Positions 1,014 to 9,317 of a DNA stretch of 9,363 nucleotides are shown piece by piece. This DNA is from Candidatus Lindowiibacteriota bacterium (GTDB taxonomy: Bacteria; Lindowbacteria; 2-12-FULL-62-27), in NCBI GenBank assembly GCA_023249255.1, contig JAHFCY010000127.1, positions 1 through 9,363 of the forward strand. Direction: 5' to 3'. The position numbers and the translations under genes were made by a program. Below the pieces are notes generated by a model that was not told where the DNA came from, ran no database searches, and was given only the letters and a program-made list of their open reading frames with translations. Position 1 is the first letter of the stretch. Every line of letters starts with the position of its first letter.

Positions 1014-2150
1014 TCAATCGTTTTTTGTAACAGGCAACGGAACGGGTGGATTCCCTCGGCTATTTCTTCTTAACGCAAGCGGGGAATATTTCCCTCCGCG
1101 CGCGTCTCTGCCATCTGCCGACTCGATTCGGTCCCACACCGAATCATCAATCGATTCATTCACTCCAAGATTCAATGGCCGGTGGTAAGGATAGACACAG
1201 GGGAGCATGGCATAAAGTCCACACGCGAATTCCCCAAGCGAATCATGCATCAAAGCCTCGTGTGCATCTTTCTCCACGGCAACCTCACGTGTAAACTCCA
1301 GCCCGCAGGCAGCCGCCTTCTTCTGCATCCACCTTAGCGGTATTTGTTGCAATTTCCCATTTTTGTAGCCACCGCCGACGTCTGCATGCGCTCCGGAAAA
1401 CCAACGTTGCTCTACGGTCTGTCCAGGCGACGGCTTCTTGTCGATGGACCACATCGTTGCGGCAAAATCCGGTCGATGTTCATCCATGGCCACCGCATGA
1501 TAGGCATTCTCCACCATCCTGCTTAACTGTGTGTCGTGCCAACGGTAATAATCCGAACTGAATCGAATTCCATGCACAGGCACTCCCAGCGCGCCAACGG
1601 TATCCCACACGCCAAGAAACTTCACTTTGATCTCCGGCCAACTGAATGTCTTCTTGAAAGCGGTAGCCCGTAACCCGTCCGGCTCCCATTCCTTCTCTCG
1701 ATATATGTGATATGCCTCTTCAGCGAGTGCTTCTGCTTCAGAGTCCGACGCCCCGGCGGGAATACCGCATTTCCGGATCAGGCCGACCAGACTTCTTGCC
1801 GTATACGCTCCGCGGCTGAACCCGAAAATGAAAATCTCATCACCCGACTGATAGTGTTCCGTCAGCCACAAATACCCATCCTTGATGTTTCGGGACAGCC
1901 CATATCCAAAACTTCCGCCCAATAACTTCTCACCATAATTCACTCCCACGCCCGGGTGATAATATTTGATCTGCTCGACGGCCGTTCCCGTCCCTACACC
2001 CGATTCCTCAGTCGCCTTTTTCCCCATCAACCTATATTTGCCCCGAAAACTCCGTATGGATGCCGTCAGATCATAAAGCCGATAAACGTTGGTGCGGTCA
2101 TCCCGCGTGTTCCACGTCCCGTCAAAAAAGAGGGCAAGCCTTCGATTCAT
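1014..2150 (-). CDS. DUF2235 alpha/beta hydrolase (Tle1-like phospholipase/esterase family)
   Basis: A 378-residue protein with the hallmarks of the DUF2235 family: FFDGTWN near the N-terminus (residues 8-14), the nucleophile elbow GFSRG (110-114, Ser112) within IFIFGFSRGAYTARS, the acid-bearing LGVWDTVGALGVP (Asp183), and the WFSGAHADVGGGY block (250-262, His255). Ser112, Asp183 and His255 are my proposed catalytic triad. DUF2235 includes Tle1-type T6SS phospholipase effectors and uncharacterised hydrolases, so a lipid or ester substrate is likely but unproven. It has no signal peptide or membrane segment and none of the C-terminal extension that large effectors carry. The start at 2150 is preceded by GGAAGCGG. 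It is the last gene of a three-gene operon, 21 bp after the membrane-protein gene, which may position it at or protect against membrane lipid. No VgrG, PAAR or T6SS gene is visible. Confidence 0.88.
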   Translation of the reverse strand: MNRRLALFFDGTWNTRDDRTNVYRLYDLTASIRSFRGKYRLMGKKATEESGVGTGTAVEQIKYYHPGVGVNYGEKLLGGSFGYGLSRNIKDGYLWLTEHYQSGDEIFIFGFSRGAYTARSLVGLIRKCGIPAGASDSEAEALAEEAYHIYREKEWEPDGLRATAFKKTFSWPEIKVKFLGVWDTVGALGVPVHGIRFSSDYYRWHDTQLSRMVENAYHAVAMDEHRPDFAATMWSIDKKPSPGQTVEQRWFSGAHADVGGGYKNGKLQQIPLRWMQKKAAACGLEFTREVAVEKDAHEALMHDSLGEFACGLYAMLPCVYPYHRPLNLGVNESIDDSVWDRIESADGRDARGGKYSPLALRRNSRGNPPVPLPVTKND

Positions 2151-2171
2151 ACCGCTTCCATACCCATAAAC

Positions 2172-3011
2172 CTACTTCTCAGCAGCATGAATTTCTTCAT
2201 AGGCTTTATCCCAATGATCGCTCATCCTATTAAAAATGGATGCTCCCATTACCGTCGTTACGGTCAAAGAAATCATTAAAATGTATTCAAATATTACGAT
2301 TCTATTCCCAAAAGATTTATCAAGGATATTCCAAGCACCAGCCGTCATTCTATCATCTATGAAAATCCACCATTCGGCAACCAGAGGAAAAAGGAAAAGC
2401 AACCACGTGACCATACGCAGGAGAAATTCTCTCGATTTATGAGATCCACCGGGGATATTCCAGATTTGATGCATACCGGCCATTTTGTAAAAATCTCGGA
2501 ATGGGTGGATCCCTGCTTCTCGAACTGATTCAAAGGAAATTCGCAGGGTTTCTTCTTCTCTAATGAGACAAAATAGGAAGACAATGGCCAAGACATTTAG
2601 TTGCAAGGAGCTAAAAAGAAGAAAATCGTTAATATCAAAAGTGACGTCCACGAACGGAACTTTGAATGTTCCGTTGAATTGATCATCCAAATTGTATAGT
2701 TGTCGTTGTAGAAAATCCTTATCAACGGGTGTCTGTAAACCGATTCCCATTTTCTCCAATGCGCCCCGCAACCTTTTCCGTTCCTCATCGGATACATGGT
2801 CAGTATTCGTTGGACTTTTTAATTCTTCCCAATGGTTTAAAAGGGAGTGCCGAAGGTTGATTCGATGTTCCAACCAGCTTCCTTCGCGTGTCTTCCAGTA
2901 GAAGGCAAAGATCATGGCACTTGAAAGCAAGATGATATAGAAAACAACCCGGCTCCTTTTGGAAGCCTCACCCACACCATCCAAATAAAACTTTAGTCTC
3001 TCCCAATCCAT
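2172..3011 (-). CDS. Four-helix integral membrane protein, hypothetical
   Basis: I start this at the ATG at 3011 because AGGAGG sits just upstream. The open frame extends to a TTG at 3065 without such a site. The 279-residue product has four hydrophobic segments at about 21-38, 132-150, 199-218 and 238-258. A charged region of about 90 residues lies between helices 1 and 2 (containing SDEERKRLRGALEKMG), and another between helices 2 and 3 (REEETLRISFESVREAG). I do not recognise the family. It lies between the unknown first gene and the DUF2235 hydrolase, with gaps of 66 and 21 bp, so it is probably the membrane partner of the hydrolase: anchor, immunity protein or delivery component. The DNA is clearly more AT-rich than the flanking genes, a sign of foreign origin. 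Confidence 0.8.
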   Translation of the reverse strand: MDWERLKFYLDGVGEASKRSRVVFYIILLSSAMIFAFYWKTREGSWLEHRINLRHSLLNHWEELKSPTNTDHVSDEERKRLRGALEKMGIGLQTPVDKDFLQRQLYNLDDQFNGTFKVPFVDVTFDINDFLLFSSLQLNVLAIVFLFCLIREEETLRISFESVREAGIHPFRDFYKMAGMHQIWNIPGGSHKSREFLLRMVTWLLFLFPLVAEWWIFIDDRMTAGAWNILDKSFGNRIVIFEYILMISLTVTTVMGASIFNRMSDHWDKAYEEIHAAEK

Positions 3012-3077
3012 AATTCCTCCTCTTCTCGCTGGATCGAATCCAACCTCGTTCCCAGCAGACGTCAAACTGACGGTGAC

Positions 3078-3821
3078 CTATCTATGTGCCTTTCGATCAT
3101 CATAGCCGAAAATCGCGTAATCAACGTACATGTTGCCGGTCAAATCAACCACGTCCTGGCTGTTTCTTACCCCATGCGGATAATGTTCGACTCGGTCGAG
3201 CGACATATACAGCAATCCAATTTGCTGATCTCTTTTCTTTGATAGAACGTCTCCAACGATGCTGAATATGAACTTGCCGACTTCAACGGCAGCGGTGTAT
3301 CCGGGGTTCATGGTACCCCCAATGAGAGCGGGCAAGCTGTTGGCAAACGATCCGAATTCTTGGTGATTCACCACACCCAGGATTTCCGCACCCACGTCTC
3401 TGGTTCTGTCATTTAATTTTATCGCGGTGAATTGCCAGCTGAAGTCCTCCGGTATTTCTTTGGACTGATACAGGACGTACCCCGTATCGCCGAAGAATGC
3501 GGTCTGATTGTCTTTGACCGATTCGATCGGCGTCAGTCGGCGCGTTGCCGCGACAGCCTTGACAATGTCCATCACCAATTCCTTTTTCCTCTGCGGGTCG
3601 GTTGTCTTTAGCAATTCGTCCAAATTGGGCAAATCCATGTTCCCACTTACGATTAGACTCCACAGCTGAACGGTCGCCAAGTCACGACCAAGCCCCAGAA
3701 ACCCCTTAGTGGTTTCGTTGTCAATAATCTTCACCTTGTTTATGCGAAAGTAGAACACATTGGCCTCCCGGCTGACATATGGCCAGCATCGTCGACCACT
3801 TTCGAATGCCGACGCCGTCAT
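3078..3821 (-). CDS. Hypothetical soluble protein, first gene of the hydrolase operon
   Basis: A 247-residue protein, start chosen at the ATG at 3821 (MTASAFESGRR) with GGAGG a few bases upstream. A TTG at 3848 would add nine residues that include the translated ribosome binding site. No signal peptide or long hydrophobic helix is present, although residues 175-193 (TAAVEVGKFIFSIVGDVL) are moderately hydrophobic. The ends look beta-rich: VFYFRINKVKIIDNETTKG near the N-terminus, and IGLLYMSLDRVEHY plus GNMYVDYAIFGYDD at the C-terminus. The middle (64-100) is helical and charged. I do not recognise the family. A C2-like or other beta-sandwich fold is possible but is only a guess. As the promoter-proximal gene of an operon ending in a lipase-like enzyme, it could be a sensor, chaperone or regulator of the other two. 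Confidence 0.75.
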   Translation of the reverse strand: MTASAFESGRRCWPYVSREANVFYFRINKVKIIDNETTKGFLGLGRDLATVQLWSLIVSGNMDLPNLDELLKTTDPQRKKELVMDIVKAVAATRRLTPIESVKDNQTAFFGDTGYVLYQSKEIPEDFSWQFTAIKLNDRTRDVGAEILGVVNHQEFGSFANSLPALIGGTMNPGYTAAVEVGKFIFSIVGDVLSKKRDQQIGLLYMSLDRVEHYPHGVRNSQDVVDLTGNMYVDYAIFGYDDRKAHR

Positions 3822-4051
3822 CCTACCTCCGATATATCTGAATTCCAACCTAATATTTTATGGGCCGACGGCGTATCAATTTCCAACAAAACCTTCTTCT
3901 CATCTTCCTTTTCTCACGACGTACATGACCCTCCACATCTCCGGCAACAATTGCCGCGCCTTTGCCGTTTACCGCTCATAAAATCCGGTCAAACTTCCGA
4001 TAACAATAAGTAGTAGATAGTCACGATAGAAGGTTATGAACAAAGGAGTTG
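3822..4051. promoter_or_regulatory. Divergent intergenic region between the hydrolase operon and the MerR-like gene
   Basis: This 230-bp gap must hold the promoters of two divergent transcription units. On the minus strand an AT-rich stretch at 3851-3863 (CATAAAATATTAG) lies about 18 bp downstream of TTGGAA (3887-3882) and TTGATA (3880-3875). Either pair is a plausible sigma70-like promoter for the operon, but neither matches closely. On the plus strand no convincing pair is seen; AAGGAG at 4043-4048 precedes the ATG at 4052. A perfect palindromic site, CGGCAACAATTGCCG, sits at 3942-3956, with a half-site TTGCCG at 3962-3967. The same 15-mer recurs at 4251-4265 inside the next gene, so this gap may contain the operator of that gene's product and could couple control of both units. 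Confidence 0.5.
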
Positions 4052-4265
4052 ATGAAATTGGCCCCCGATACCCACTCACACGAATCTAACCACCAACGGC
4101 AAGATCTTGCCGTAGTCCCGGCAACTATTTCCCCCAGCAATCTTTCCGGAAACTCTTGCCTCGATGACGGCAACGCTTGCCGGCAAGGCGTTGCCGGAGA
4201 GCCGGCAACAATTTCCTCCGGCATCAACCCCGGAAATACTTGCCAAGACGCGGCAACAATTGCCG
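3942..4265. repeat. Array of nine palindromic sites, CGGCAA-N3/4-TTGCCG
   Basis: Five near-identical dyads are seen: 3942-3956 and 4251-4265 (both CGGCAACAATTGCCG), 4097-4112 (spacer GATC), 4168-4182 (spacer CGC) and 4181-4196 (spacer GGCG), the last two overlapping. Four degenerate copies fill the gaps: 4119-4133 (CGGCAACTATTTCCC), 4147-4161 (CGGAAACTCTTGCCT), 4203-4217 (CGGCAACAATTTCCT) and 4231-4245 (CGGAAATACTTGCCA). Centre-to-centre steps from 4104 are about 21, 28, 21, 13, 21, 28 and 20 bp, so most neighbours lie about two helical turns apart. Iterated dyads beside a gene for a DNA-binding coiled-coil protein suggest an operator or centromere (parS-like) cluster. Protein binding is inferred, not shown. 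Confidence 0.75.
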
Positions 4266-5191
4266 AAGTGGACGGCCCCGAATGGCTCTCCGTTGAATCC
4301 GTTTCCCACCAGCTCGGCGTCTCCCCTAGGACTGTACGCTACTGGGCCCAAAAAGAGATGGTGCTCGCCAAACGCACCAAAGACGGCTGGATCATCCGCG
4401 CCGACTCACTGCCCAAATTGCCCCGCTTAAGCCCCGGTCATGCCGGCGTCAGACTCGAAGTCCAGGATTCCGCACTCCTCCAGAAAGTCGAGGACATGGC
4501 ATCCGTCATCGGTGCCCTCCGCAGCAAACTCGAAGACACCGAAGAGCGCTTGCGAGAATCCCAGCGACTCCTCCCCGAGGCCCGGGAAACCATCCGAAAG
4601 CGTGAAGAAGAAATGATACGCGCCAGAGAAAAAGCGGCGGCGGAAGAAGCGCGGCGGCTCGAACTCGAAAAATCCAAGGCCCAGGAAGAACTCAAACGAA
4701 TTGACGCGGAACGCGCGGCGCTCGAAGAAAAAATCCGGCGGGAATTGATCGAAAAGGAAAAAGCGGAAGAACAATCTCGAAGACTCCAAGCCGAAAAATT
4801 AGCGGCCGAAGAAACCGCCCGCAGGATCGAAGAAGAAATCAAACGCAAAGACGCCGAACGGAAAGCGGCAGAAGAAGCGGCTCTGCGAGTCACCGCAGAG
4901 GCATCTGCAAAAAAATTCCGCGCGCGCCTGAAAACTCTTGCCTACGCCGCTGGCATTATCGTCGTCATCGGTTCGATCGCTTTCGTTATGACGACGAAAG
5001 GTTACTCCTTCTCCAAGTCCACCCACACCGATGTGTCTCTTCAATCCAGCTCAGCGCCAATCCAGCCCGCTCCCGCCACACCTGCGGCATCCGCCGCCCC
5101 ATCGACATCCGATCCCGACGCCGCTTTCGCTCAAACCCCGGTTGTTCCATCGCAACCTCAAACGCCGAACCCGGTGCAAGAACCCCGCTAA
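4052..5191 (+). CDS. Membrane-anchored MerR-like DNA-binding coiled-coil protein, candidate partition protein
   Basis: A 379-residue protein starting at the ATG at 4052 with AAGGAG three bases upstream; the adjacent TTG is less likely. Residues 17-72 are two 28-residue tandem repeats sharing PATIS and GN(S/T)C. Residues 77-125 form a MerR/excisionase-type winged HTH (WLSVESVSHQLGVSPRTVRYW, then a GWIIRADSLPKL wing). Residues 140-290 are a long Glu/Lys/Arg/Ala coiled coil. Residues 296-313 are one hydrophobic helix preceded by KKFRARLK, predicting a cytoplasmic N-terminus. The C-terminal 65 residues are Pro/Ala/Ser-rich, probably periplasmic. HTH plus coiled coil resembles pSK1 Par (single-protein plasmid partition) and RacA (chromosome anchoring), neither of which has this membrane helix to my knowledge. 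With rep genes downstream and a palindrome array in its own 5' end, a role in tethering plasmid DNA to the membrane and in autoregulation is my inference. A membrane-bound transcription regulator is the alternative. Confidence 0.85.
   Translation: MKLAPDTHSHESNHQRQDLAVVPATISPSNLSGNSCLDDGNACRQGVAGEPATISSGINPGNTCQDAATIAEVDGPEWLSVESVSHQLGVSPRTVRYWAQKEMVLAKRTKDGWIIRADSLPKLPRLSPGHAGVRLEVQDSALLQKVEDMASVIGALRSKLEDTEERLRESQRLLPEARETIRKREEEMIRAREKAAAEEARRLELEKSKAQEELKRIDAERAALEEKIRRELIEKEKAEEQSRRLQAEKLAAEETARRIEEEIKRKDAERKAAEEAALRVTAEASAKKFRARLKTLAYAAGIIVVIGSIAFVMTTKGYSFSKSTHTDVSLQSSSAPIQPAPATPAASAAPSTSDPDAAFAQTPVVPSQPQTPNPVQEPR
4100..4267 (+). repeat. 84-bp tandem duplication (two units) in the 5' coding region
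   Basis: Unit 1 is 4100-4183 and unit 2 is 4184-4267, together encoding residues 17-44 and 45-72 of the MerR-like protein. The DNA units clearly align (for example CCGGCAAC.ATTTCC and CCGGAAA..CTTGCC in both) and the protein keeps PATIS, GN(S/T)C and flanking positions. Each unit carries four palindromic sites at about the same offsets, so the whole site array was duplicated in frame at exactly 28 codons. The two copies have diverged at many positions while the CGGCAA/TTGCCG cores persist. This suggests selection on the DNA sites rather than on the encoded peptide. Confidence 0.8.
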
Positions 5192-5339: not shown

Positions 5340-5448
5340 GCACGGCCAACTCTGTCCCCGTAACCTGATCGACTGTCCTGAAGGTGCTGTCTCGCTGAAA
5401 AAAAGGCGGGACCGCGTGCCAATCCTTCAGGACAGCATTTGGCCGTGC
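5340..5448. repeat. Nested inverted repeats in the repA1 leader
   Basis: The 316-bp gap between the MerR-like gene (stop at 5191) and repA1 contains two nested perfect inverted repeats. The outer one is GCACGGCCAA at 5340-5349 with TTGGCCGTGC at 5439-5448. The inner one is CTGTCCTGAAGG at 5373-5384 with CCTTCAGGACAG at 5424-5435. The loop carries A7 at 5398-5404 next to a GC-rich dyad (GCGGGACCGC). Read on the minus strand this becomes a small GC stem followed by T7, a weak candidate terminator for an antisense RNA. Such leaders often control rep translation or copy number in plasmids. The first part of the gap (5192-5339) shows no gene or clear structure beyond a T7 tract near 5280 without a stem. 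Confidence 0.6.
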
Positions 5449-5507: not shown

Positions 5508-6284
5508 GTGAGCAACTTTATGTACATTCCAACGTGCTTGGCGAATGCCGGCCTTCCGCATTCGGCTTTTGGCGGCGGTGTTTGGCGGCGTCAAGCCGGC
5601 GATTTTCAGCTGTTGGTGATCGCCGGAAAAGATTCCCGGATCCCGTGCGGTTCTTACGCGCGGCTCTTTTTCATGTGGCTCGTCACGCAGGTCATCCTCC
5701 TCAAAAAACAAACCATAAAAACAAACGACAGCCTCCATTCGATCCTCAAATCCCTCGGCCTCAATACCGATGGCAAAACGCGCCGTCGCTTCAAAGACCA
5801 AGCCGCCCGGTTCCTATCCTGTTCCATGTCCATGTTCAGATTGTCCGCTGGCGCCACCGACGCGGTCCACCAAATTTGTTCCGCCTTCGATCTCCAGTGG
5901 AACCACCGCCTACCGGACAACCCCTCTTTCTTCGATTCCACTTTCCTCATCAGCGACGCCTTCTTCGACCACATTATGGCCTCCGCCTTCCCCGTCAAAA
6001 AAGAAGCAGTCATCGCCATGCGCCAATCCCCGTTCTGCCTCGACATCTACCCTTGGCTGTCCCATCGCATGAGTTACAACCGCCAGGACACCAGAATTTC
6101 CTTCGACTCCCTGGAAAATCAGTTCGGATCCGCCTTCAACCGCCCCGCGGATTTCAAACGCTCATTCCGTCACCATCTCCAAACCGTCTCCGCCCACTAC
6201 CCCGAAGCCCTTACATCCTTTTACCCAACAGGCCTCATCCTGCATCCATCCCCGACAGCGGTGCCACGGATGGCGCCCCAATGA
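5508..6284 (+). CDS. repA: RepA-type plasmid replication initiator (first copy)
   Basis: A 258-residue protein. I choose the GTG at 5508 because GGAAGGGGTGGG lies just upstream and the alignment to the second RepA in this window begins here (NFMYIPTCLANAGLP against HTFLPASLAMATLP). The frame opens earlier, at a TTG at 5439, but that falls inside an inverted repeat. Conserved blocks of the plasmid-encoded RepA family (PF04796) are visible: IPCGSYARLFFMWLVTQV (45-62), DAFFDHIMASAFPV (150-163), MRQSPFCLDIYPWLSHR (171-187), LENQFG (202-207) and a terminal GLILHPSPTAVP. These proteins bind iterons at a plasmid origin and recruit the host replication machinery. Compared with repA2 it lacks about 33 N-terminal residues, and much of the sequence differs, so the two are old paralogues or separately acquired replicons, not a recent duplication. 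Three iteron-like repeats begin 37 bp past the stop. Confidence 0.85.
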   Translation: MSNFMYIPTCLANAGLPHSAFGGGVWRRQAGDFQLLVIAGKDSRIPCGSYARLFFMWLVTQVILLKKQTIKTNDSLHSILKSLGLNTDGKTRRRFKDQAARFLSCSMSMFRLSAGATDAVHQICSAFDLQWNHRLPDNPSFFDSTFLISDAFFDHIMASAFPVKKEAVIAMRQSPFCLDIYPWLSHRMSYNRQDTRISFDSLENQFGSAFNRPADFKRSFRHHLQTVSAHYPEALTSFYPTGLILHPSPTAVPRMAPQ

Positions 6285-6518
6285 TATCCACATTTTTCAG
6301 TGGATTGCCCCGACTTATCTACGTGCATTCGGTCACCGCCTCCTCCCTCTCAAAACACGCGTATTCGGTCACACCCATACGTGTAAACGGTCACAACCGG
6401 CGACCTGCCCGGCGATGTATCTGCATCAACACCAATCGATTTCCAAAACGTCCGCCACCCGCCTTGTAGTATGTCTTCTATCCTTATAGTTACCAGAAGC
6501 TGCTGTTTTGTGGATATC
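6284..6518. other. Putative replication origin of the repA1 module
   Basis: Immediately at the repA1 stop lies ATATCCACA (6284-6292), one mismatch from the DnaA-box consensus TTATCCACA. Its inverse, TGTGGATAT, is at 6509-6517; with flanking bases they form a 10-bp inverted pair (GATATCCACA/TGTGGATATC). Between them are three direct repeats (6321-6394), followed by a moderately AT-rich stretch with CTTATAGTTACC near 6480-6495. Iterons plus DnaA boxes next to a RepA gene are the usual parts of a theta-type origin. The location downstream of the initiator gene is less usual but is mirrored at repA2. The A+T-rich unwinding element is not pronounced here. Confidence 0.55.
6321..6394 (+). repeat. 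Three iteron-like direct repeats (repA1)
   Basis: ACGTGCATTCGGTCAC (6321-6336), ACGCGTATTCGGTCAC (6357-6372) and ACGTGTAAACGGTCAC (6379-6394) share the pattern ACGYGNAWWCGGTCAC. Start-to-start spacing is 36 and 22 bp. They are probably RepA1 binding sites. Short multiple repeats also occur at IS21-family transposon ends, but no istA or istB is present. Confidence 0.7.
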
Positions 6519-6666: not shown

Positions 6667-8124
6667 ATGGACGATCCCCTAAAAAAAGATGCGGACACCA
6701 TCAAAGCCTTTCTCTCCAATCAGGATAAATCCAAACTGATCGACCTCCTCCTCGACCAATCCCAAACCGATGACCGCCTCCATGAAAAACTCGCGATGCA
6801 AGCCGCCAAGTCTGAACCCCGAGGTCCGGATATGGCCTCTTTCCGCAAGGTCATCAACAGCGCCGTAAAACGCCGGCGATTCATAGACTATGCCCACGCC
6901 TTCGAGTACGCCCAGGGCATCGAGCAGATCATCGACGAATTGGACCAGATGGCACAAGACCATCCGTCCGCAACCATCGACCTTTGCGAATATGCCCTGA
7001 CCGCCTTGGAATCGGCGACAGGATCAGTCGACGATTCGGACGGTCACATGACCCCCTTGATGCGCCGTCTTCAGGAAATTCATCTGGCCGCCTGCCGCAA
7101 ATCCAATCCGGATCCCAAAAATCTCGCCCGGCTCCTGTTTCAACGCGAACTGACCACAGACTACGACGTCTTTTACGGCGCCGCCGAAACCTACAAAGAC
7201 GTTCTCGGCCCCAAAGGATTGGCCGTCTTTCGGCAATTGGCAGAAGTCCAATGGTCCAAGATTCCTCCGCTCGGTCCCCGGCAGAAACGGTCGACCGAAG
7301 ACAACCCTCGATTCCAAATCACTCACATCATGGAAACCTTGGCCATGATGTCGGGCGACACGGAAGAACTGGTAGCCGTCAAAAGTCGTGATCTTTCCCT
7401 CGAATACGCTTTTTTGGAAATCGCCCAGATTTACAAAAAGGCGGGCAAGGACGACCTCGCCCTCGAATGGGCCGAACGCGGCGTCCGATCTTTCCCCGGT
7501 CGTTGTGATGCGCGCCTCCGTGACTTCCTCGCCGAGGAATACAAACGGCAATCCCGCCACGACGAAGCCATAGTCATCATCTGGTCCGAATTCGCCGACT
7601 GGCCGAACCTGACCTATTATCAAAAACTCAAACCTTACGCCGACCAAATCCAAGCATGGCCTACTTGGCGTCAAAAATCCCTCGACCTCATCCGCGATCG
7701 TATCCAACGTGAGAAAGACTCTTCACAAAAGGAACGTTCAACCTCGATCATCACATGGTCGCGCGTCCCAGACCATTCCGCCTTGGTCTCCATTTTCTTG
7801 TGGGAAAAAGACGCCGAATCAGCTTGGCATGAAGCAACCGAAGGCGGTTGCACACAAGACCTCTGGCTCAATCTTGCCGCCCTCCGGGAAGAGGAACATC
7901 CTGAAGACGCCATCCGAATCTACCAGAATCAGATCGCCCCCACGCTCGACCACAAAAACAACGCCGCCTACGAAGAAGCAGTAGCCTTCATTCAAAAAAT
8001 CCACGACATCATGTCCCGCCTCAGCCAATCCGCCGAATTCTCAAAATATCTCCAATCCCTCCGCGCCTCCCACAAACGCTTCCGAAATTTCATGAAACTA
8101 CTCGACAAGACAAACTGGTACTGA
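6667..8124 (+). CDS. DUF6880-like helical-repeat protein (SWIM-associated family)
   Basis: A 485-residue protein from the ATG at 6667. No good Shine-Dalgarno is visible before it, so the start or expression level is uncertain. The N-terminal third matches the pattern I associate with DUF6880 proteins: IKAFLSNQDKSKLIDLLLDQ, FRKVINSAVKRRRFIDYAHAFEYAQGIEQIIDEL, CEYALTALESATGSVDDSDG (about 108-127), LQEIHLAACRKSNPDP and FYGAAETYKDVLGPKGLAVF. The rest is helical, with TPR-like pairs such as YAFLEIAQIYKKAGKDDLALEWAERGVRSFPG. This region is often encoded with or fused to SWIM zinc-finger proteins, but no CxCxnCxH SWIM motif occurs here, so it stands alone. It is probably a soluble scaffold or protein-interaction module; its biochemical role is unknown. 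It sits between two convergent replication modules and is transcribed away from repA1. The family call rests on motif memory. Confidence 0.75.
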   Translation: MDDPLKKDADTIKAFLSNQDKSKLIDLLLDQSQTDDRLHEKLAMQAAKSEPRGPDMASFRKVINSAVKRRRFIDYAHAFEYAQGIEQIIDELDQMAQDHPSATIDLCEYALTALESATGSVDDSDGHMTPLMRRLQEIHLAACRKSNPDPKNLARLLFQRELTTDYDVFYGAAETYKDVLGPKGLAVFRQLAEVQWSKIPPLGPRQKRSTEDNPRFQITHIMETLAMMSGDTEELVAVKSRDLSLEYAFLEIAQIYKKAGKDDLALEWAERGVRSFPGRCDARLRDFLAEEYKRQSRHDEAIVIIWSEFADWPNLTYYQKLKPYADQIQAWPTWRQKSLDLIRDRIQREKDSSQKERSTSIITWSRVPDHSALVSIFLWEKDAESAWHEATEGGCTQDLWLNLAALREEEHPEDAIRIYQNQIAPTLDHKNNAAYEEAVAFIQKIHDIMSRLSQSAEFSKYLQSLRASHKRFRNFMKLLDKTNWY

Positions 8125-8249: not shown

Positions 8250-8420
8250 TCTTATCAACAATCGAACGTATACTACATGTACCTATCTGCGAACTACTAT
8301 ATGTATATAGGGTATCAGAAGTGACACCCCTTCTGTATCAGAAGTGACACCCATAGCCATAGATTGGCCGTATCAGAAGTGACACCATTACCTTGTTGAA
8401 ACTGTGGATATTGTGGATTG
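8250..8420. other. Putative replication origin of the repA2 module
   Basis: Reading away from the repA2 3' end (minus strand), two DnaA-box-like 9-mers lie in tandem: TGTGGATTG (8412-8420) and TGTGGATAT (8403-8411). The second is the same 9-mer that flanks the repA1 repeats. Three perfect 17-bp direct repeats follow (8312-8386), then an AT-rich segment at 8251-8311 with a CTATAT-GT-ATATAG dyad (8297-8310) and TTATCAACA (8252-8260), another near-consensus DnaA box. DnaA boxes, iterons and an AT-rich tract in this order form a classic iteron-origin layout. Function is inferred from arrangement alone. Confidence 0.6.
8312..8386 (-). repeat. Three perfect 17-bp iteron-like direct repeats (repA2)
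   Basis: GTATCAGAAGTGACACC occurs identically at 8312-8328, 8335-8351 and 8370-8386 (plus-strand reading). Start-to-start spacing is 23 and 35 bp, nearly the mirror of the 36 and 22 bp at repA1 when each is read outward from its rep gene. Perfect identity indicates active maintenance or recent origin. They are likely RepA2 binding sites; IS21-family end repeats are the main alternative. Confidence 0.8.
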
Positions 8421-8432
8421 CGGGTCCAGCGC

Positions 8433-9317
8433 TCAATAGACCGATATTTGGTGTCTGAAAGAAGTCGGCGGGACGGAAGTCGGGGATGGGTACAGAATCA
8501 GGTGATCCGGCGTCGTTTTGAACCGTGCCCCACGGTAAGCGCATTTGATCAGTTCGAGGTACTTACAGCATCTGGCCTTAAACAGTCTGGATGCATCGGT
8601 CTCCGTTCCAAACTGCTTCTGGAGTGATGGCCACGGAACGCGCGTTTCGCTCTTGAGGGTATAATATCGGAACGTCAGCCACGCGTAGAGGTCCAGCGCC
8701 AACGGCGATCGGCGGATGGCATCGATGATTCGAATATCGAGAGGAAACGCGTGTTTCATGACGTGTTCGAAAAACACCTCGCCGACCGTAATTTCAGCGT
8801 CCGGCGTCTCCGGAAAATTCACGTTCCACCAAGTCGAGTACCGTGTCGCAATCTCCGCCGAAACATGGTCCCGCCGCTTTTCGCTTCTTCGCTCATACAT
8901 GATAGCCGAAAGAAGCAGCCGGTTGGCCTGGTTGGTGAATAAAATGCGAGCCTTCCCTTTTGGCTGAATTTTGAGCGCCAAAAGAAACGCGTAGTAGCTC
9001 CTCCCGAGTTTGATCACCCGCTTGCCGCTCCGTTTGATTTCGTTGGTCAGCCACATCATAAGCAGCCGCGGATAAACCCCAAACGGCAGTCCATAATCCG
9101 AGTGCGCGCGGATGTAGAGCTCAAAATCAAACGCCCGCCGCCGCCACTCAAGAACAGCAGGTCCAGGATCAACATAGGGAAGCGTAGCCATGGCAAGAGA
9201 CGCCGGCAGAAACGTATGTTCCTGCGGCAGATCGTGGATGGATAGAAGCCTATCGACCTTCCGAGAAGTCGTCTGCTGAGCGGGAGACAAAACACTCCCG
9301 ACCCCGATATCCCCCAT
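8433..9317 (-). CDS. repA: RepA-type plasmid replication initiator (second copy)
   Basis: A 294-residue protein starting at the ATG at 9317, with GAGGGAG just upstream as ribosome binding site. The PF04796-type RepA blocks are clearer than in the first copy: YGLPFGVYPRLLMMWLTNEI (75-94), LGRSYYAFLLALKI (104-117), TVGEVFFEHVMKHAFPLD (177-194), IRRSPLALDLYAWLTFRYY (201-219), LQKQFGT (232-238) and HLILYPSPTSVPP (272-284). Residues 1-35 are an extra, polar N-terminal segment absent from the first copy. It should act as the origin-binding initiator for its own replicon, with three perfect 17-bp repeats starting 47 bp past its stop. It is transcribed toward repA1. A small dyad in the short upstream segment (AGTAG/CTACT, 9340-9353) could be an operator, but the window ends there. 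Confidence 0.9.
   Translation of the reverse strand: MGDIGVGSVLSPAQQTTSRKVDRLLSIHDLPQEHTFLPASLAMATLPYVDPGPAVLEWRRRAFDFELYIRAHSDYGLPFGVYPRLLMMWLTNEIKRSGKRVIKLGRSYYAFLLALKIQPKGKARILFTNQANRLLLSAIMYERRSEKRRDHVSAEIATRYSTWWNVNFPETPDAEITVGEVFFEHVMKHAFPLDIRIIDAIRRSPLALDLYAWLTFRYYTLKSETRVPWPSLQKQFGTETDASRLFKARCCKYLELIKCAYRGARFKTTPDHLILYPSPTSVPPTSFRHQISVY

Follow-up and report, generated by a model that had tools for sequence, protein, structure and literature searches.

It is an open question how plasmids or chromosomes are segregated when no motor driven by ATP or GTP takes part. The staphylococcal plasmid pSK1 carries the one-protein partition system Par, whose centromere repeats lie close to its own gene, and in Bacillus RacA anchors the chromosome at the cell envelope. 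For chromosome segregation in Streptococcus, RocS combines a MerR-type winged helix-turn-helix (HTH), a multimerising coiled coil and a C-terminal membrane anchor and acts with no ParA; its authors propose that DNA is tethered to the membrane, a scheme likewise proposed for pSK1 Par, and state that the way in which a single DNA-binding protein could drive segregation by membrane tethering is unclear (PMC11500499). TubY from type III partition systems of Bacillus plasmids has a MerR-like HTH, a parallel coiled coil and a membrane-binding tail (PMC7762940). KfrA of IncP-1 and IncU plasmids joins an HTH to a very long helix, autoregulates via repeated sites and has a role in plasmid stability (PMC7783346).

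We analyzed a window of 9,363 nucleotides, i.e., the entire contig of a metagenome-assembled genome (MAG; 366 contigs, 88.7% complete) from Lindowbacteria; the searched set covers this phylum with the host genome and just two others, three in all. Its ends show no terminal repeat, and closure of the contig is therefore not demonstrated. Two RepA_C proteins, each with three iterons at the 3' side, are encoded on it, and we hence conclude that it is either a plasmid with two replicons or an integrated relative. The gene of interest, which encodes an HTH, a long helix and a transmembrane (TM) helix, thus adjoins plasmid rep genes as originally predicted (Table 1).

Table 1. Positions of the HTH/helix/TM gene, its site array and neighbouring features in the window.
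Feature	Position	Strand	Remarks
First gene of divergent operon	3078..3821	-	No known family; shares upstream region with the 3942 site
Perfect palindrome CGGCAA-CAA-TTGCCG	3942..3956		Intergenic; extra half-site TTGCCG at 3962
Shine-Dalgarno AAAGGAG	4042..4048	+	Precedes start cluster TTG4049/ATG4052/TTG4058
ORF of HTH/helix/TM protein	4049..5191	+	380 aa from TTG4049, 379 from ATG4052, 307 from GTG4268
Block A	4097..4180		Perfect at 4097 and 4168, imperfect at 4119 and 4147
Block B	4181..4264		Repeats the block A pattern after 84 nt: perfect at 4181 and 4251, imperfect at 4203 and 4231
MerR-type winged HTH	4283..4417	+	Residues 79-123
Heptad-bearing charged helix, probably a coiled coil	4466..4930	+	Residues 140-294, ~155 residues
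Single TM helix	4934..4993	+	Residues ~296-315; KKFRARLK on N side
Pro/Ala/Ser-rich disordered C-terminal tail	4994..5188	+	Predicted outside inner membrane
RepA_C replication protein 1	5508..6284	+	Probably starts at the GTG following GGAAGGGG
Three iterons ACGTGCATTCGGTCAC near repA1	6321..6394		3' side of repA1
Three iterons GTATCAGAAGTGACACCC near repA2	8312..8387		3' side of repA2
RepA_C replication protein 2	8433..9317	-	

The HTH fragment scored 23.4 bits against PF13411 (MerR_1; cut-off 21.6) and passed the cut-off in the genome search too; the full-length protein fell just under it with 20.8 bits. AlphaFold2, run on the single sequence, modelled the winged HTH at residues 79-123 with good confidence and a single helix spanning 140-314, and left residues 1-77 and 315-380 disordered. 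Half of the residues in the long helix are charged, and its heptads run cleanly through the initial half before their register shifts; it is likely a coiled coil, and part of it is possibly a single charged helix. From the basic stretch preceding the TM helix, an N-in/C-out topology is predicted, i.e., a cytoplasmic HTH and a tail outside. In fold searches with the HTH, the closest matches included BldC, phage Xis and RacA (5i44), and pSK1 Par on its centromere (8csh) was among the next. The latter match (8csh_A, Z 4.9 over 51 residues) was level with many other MerR-type folds, no match had an E below 0.001, and Z values of 4 to 7 indicate membership of a common fold rather than a function. 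The anatomy of the original prediction, an HTH, a coiled coil of ~150 residues and one TM helix, is hence supported as a prediction by PF13411, the AlphaFold2 model, the heptads and the TM segment, and the proposed likeness to RacA and pSK1 Par holds at the level of the common HTH fold, for Par no more closely than for many other MerR-type HTHs.

Like RocS, the window protein has a MerR-type winged HTH, a probable central coiled coil and a predicted C-terminal membrane anchor; RocS differs in being chromosomal, in its DUF536 domain and in being anchored by an amphipathic helix rather than a TM helix. To our knowledge, RocS has no in-gene site array. Par of pSK1 is, like the window protein, plasmid-borne and made from a single gene, with a MerR-type HTH and a coiled coil, but no TM helix has been reported for it. 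DUF536, a mark of Par and RocS, gave no match in the window protein (whole protein with E up to 1, pieces with E up to 10), and in place of their other mark, a C-terminal amphipathic membrane helix, we found a hydrophobic TM helix followed by 65 disordered residues. TubY shares the MerR-like HTH, the coiled coil, membrane attachment and the setting of plasmid partition; it differs in its amphipathic tail and in its partners TubR and TubZ, neither of which was seen among the proteins of this unclosed contig. RacA has the MerR-type HTH and coiled coil in common with the window protein and also anchors DNA at the cell envelope, but does so via DivIVA and not through a TM helix of its own. The window protein resembles KfrA, which lacks a TM helix, in its long α-helical tail and in the repeated sites located at its gene; the KfrA_N domain had no match in the whole protein or in pieces. 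As neither DUF536 nor KfrA_N was found, we do not assign the protein to the Par/RocS or KfrA families. The membrane helix had been put forward as a new feature; a membrane link already exists in RocS (PMC11500499) and TubY (PMC7762940), whereas an integral helix would be new. The new parts would be this integral helix and, possibly, the in-gene site array.

This array comprises five perfect and four imperfect CGGCAA-N3/4-TTGCCG sites at 3942-4265, the latter with two mismatches each. Shuffled sequences gave 0.01 expected exact palindromes compared with the five observed, and even when any 6-nt half-site was allowed, no half-site formed more than two palindromes in 200 shuffles. Thirteen of the 27 half-sites in the window are concentrated in the 324 bp of the array. 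Eight of the nine sites form two phased 84-nt blocks with four sites per block and near-equal internal spacing; the blocks are identical at 54 of 84 positions (42/59 within sites, 12/25 outside). The sites are distributed over all three reading phases, which argues that the constraint acts on the DNA and rules out an origin of the array as a peptide repeat. Site spacings of 21.5, 28, 21, 13.5, 21.5, 28 and 20 form too weak a pattern for a claim of helical phasing. In the host genome, five of seven exact sites belong to this array and the other two are scattered; among 386 genomes, the adjacent double palindrome occurs in this array alone. Compared with plasmids, the array DNA produced scattered short matches only. 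The predicted nine-site palindrome array at the start of the gene is therefore real and far beyond chance, but only five of its sites are perfect, and the one at 3942 precedes the ORF by ~90 nt, leaving at most eight inside.

A single viral contig with the double palindrome, IMGVR_UViG_3300016484_000738 from IMG/VR, has an ORF (9146-10357, minus strand) encoding several N-terminal TM helices and a C-terminal AsnC-like HTH, with a CGGCAA-N3-TTGCCG array in the coding sequence between the last TM helix and the HTH; the contig also carries a ParB-like gene. This membrane/HTH protein is an orphan and its sequence is unrelated to that of the window protein. As it was located by searching this very DNA pattern, its in-ORF array may be a coincidence, and we do not use the parallel as evidence.

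Whether the array can be an in-gene "centromere" depends on which start codon is used. The Shine-Dalgarno duplex at the upstream start cluster reaches -8.2 kcal/mol, equalled by ~5% of the start triplets in the window, compared with -1.7 for GTG4268, and the reading frame stays open through the array (chance probability 0.18); both favor an upstream start at 4049-4058. GTG4268 is favored by codon statistics, i.e., a score of ~0 per codon for the array part compared with at least 0.03 in every 73-codon piece of clear genes, and by the position of the HTH, since HTHs of MerR type are normally found at the very N-terminus. Differences between blocks A and B are about evenly spread over codon positions, which also speaks for GTG4268. 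We consider a true start near 4052, with the array inside the gene, somewhat the likelier case. A start at GTG4268 would place every site upstream of the gene, an unremarkable arrangement that pSK1 par also shows. Sites within the coding sequence, where they would encode a disordered stretch, would also fit an in-gene replication origin that recruits replication to the membrane; the phage lambda O gene, which contains the origin sites bound by its product, is an established precedent. Such an origin is nevertheless very unlikely here, because replication is already provided for by the two RepA_C genes, each with its set of iterons, and no domain of an initiator or a helicase loader was seen in the protein.

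We searched for homologues with the complete protein, with its HTH and with the HTH joined to the helix, and found none. The searches covered 72,556 plasmids, 50,697 phages, IMG/VR, the contig collection of GTDB, 192 sampled genomes and the genomes of the phylum; as the collections were scanned with short peptides, which detect close relatives only, distant ones may have been missed. The matches obtained were ordinary MerR-type regulators only and were rejected. Among the neighbours at 79 RepA_C loci, there was one KfrA-like helix-rich protein and no HTH/helix/TM protein. By sequence, the window protein is hence an orphan in the sets searched, and co-occurrence of its domain order with the array cannot support the partition claim.

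The window contains neither parA nor parB, and no ParM or TubZ partner is encoded in it either. In the 88.7%-complete MAG we found no ParA of plasmid type; three AAA_31 matches were present, one of them a chromosomal parA beside parB, and the others resembled pilus and Mrp ATPases. At related RepA_C loci, parA was located within 3 kb in 29 of 79 cases, and it also occurs at the RepA_C replicon of Polaromonas pA31BJ1. The predicted segregation without a ParA-type ATPase thus agrees with what the window and the MAG contain, but absence is not established, as the contig is not closed and a ParA could sit on the missing part. The array might then belong to another DNA-binding protein, e.g., as a ParB centromere of the missing part, with the HTH/TM protein as an envelope or accessory protein. 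The incomplete contig and the common flanking of RepA_C genes by parA are consistent with this; it is improbable, however, given that the array lies exactly at the start of the HTH gene, the usual place for a protein's own sites, and that the window lacks parA and parB and the MAG search yielded no plasmid-type parA.

We propose, with a probability of roughly 45%, that protein and array form a plasmid maintenance module that would combine membrane tethering with autoregulation. The protein would multimerise through its long helix and bind the CGGCAA-N3/4-TTGCCG sites, which may repress its own promoter; one site is upstream and eight are downstream of the likely promoter region. The TM helix would hold the plasmid at the inner membrane, and plasmid copies would be drawn apart as the membrane grows, or be kept apart, with no need of a ParA-type motor. 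This mechanism resembles the RocS/pSK1 Par scheme, with an integral helix replacing the amphipathic one. We favor it because the array is far beyond chance and kept at the DNA level in all three phases, because the double palindrome is unique among 386 genomes and the array holds five of the seven exact sites of the genome, and because the MerR-type folds matched include RacA, with centromere-bound pSK1 Par among the next. Moreover, a continuous helix runs into the TM segment, the adjoining repA belongs to a type of replicon that often carries parA, no parA was seen in the window and none of plasmid type in the MAG, and precedents exist in RocS, TubY and KfrA. The proposal is weakened because no homologue, and hence no conservation of the arrangement, was found, because it presupposes that this HTH binds the sites, because a single unclosed contig could miss a ParA, and because DUF536 was not found. 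The boldest reading, i.e., a motor-free one-protein partition system anchored by an integral helix, with a centromere inside its own coding sequence that encodes a disordered N-terminal extension, appears rather unlikely to us. For the question of motor-free segregation, a module this small, provided with a true TM helix and a clearly delimited array of sites, would offer a clean test case.

The maintenance proposal is also weakened by the divergent operon behind the same region, which fits a regulator equally well. This operon (1014-3821, minus strand) encodes a Tle1-like phospholipase (PF09994), a membrane protein and a protein without known family; the latter two have no relatives among plasmids. 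As the main rival explanation, the protein could be a membrane-tethered transcription regulator of its own gene and of this operon, with the array as operator and no role in segregation. We regard this as possible, if tentative: one site lies between the divergent genes, a sigma70-like promoter faces the operon, most MerR-type HTHs are regulators, and a periplasmic tail could sense something. KfrA, a plasmid protein with an HTH and a long helix, also autoregulates through repeated sites. However, eight of the nine sites are away from the divergent promoter, at or within the start of the gene itself, two four-site blocks exceed the needs of a simple operator, and no ligand domain is seen in the protein.

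Further features were observed on the contig and in related genomes. The iterons of repA1 and repA2 differ in repeat sequence, which indicates two separate replicons on one contig. Upstream of repA1, a perfect 12-nt inverted repeat CTGTCCTGAAGG (5373-5435, arms 39 nt apart) is possibly a rep control site. A DUF6880 protein (6667-8124) matches the PADLOC candidate anti-phage defence family PDC-S62 (E 1.1e-33), and at the left contig end (3-936, minus strand) tail-fibre-like genes (BppL_N, DUF6385) are truncated by the contig end. In each of the two related Lindowbacteria genomes, a small HTH gene and an integrase-like gene come after a RepA_C gene (8903-11366 and 13389-15852); this stretch is nearly identical across the two genera and is probably an integrating element.
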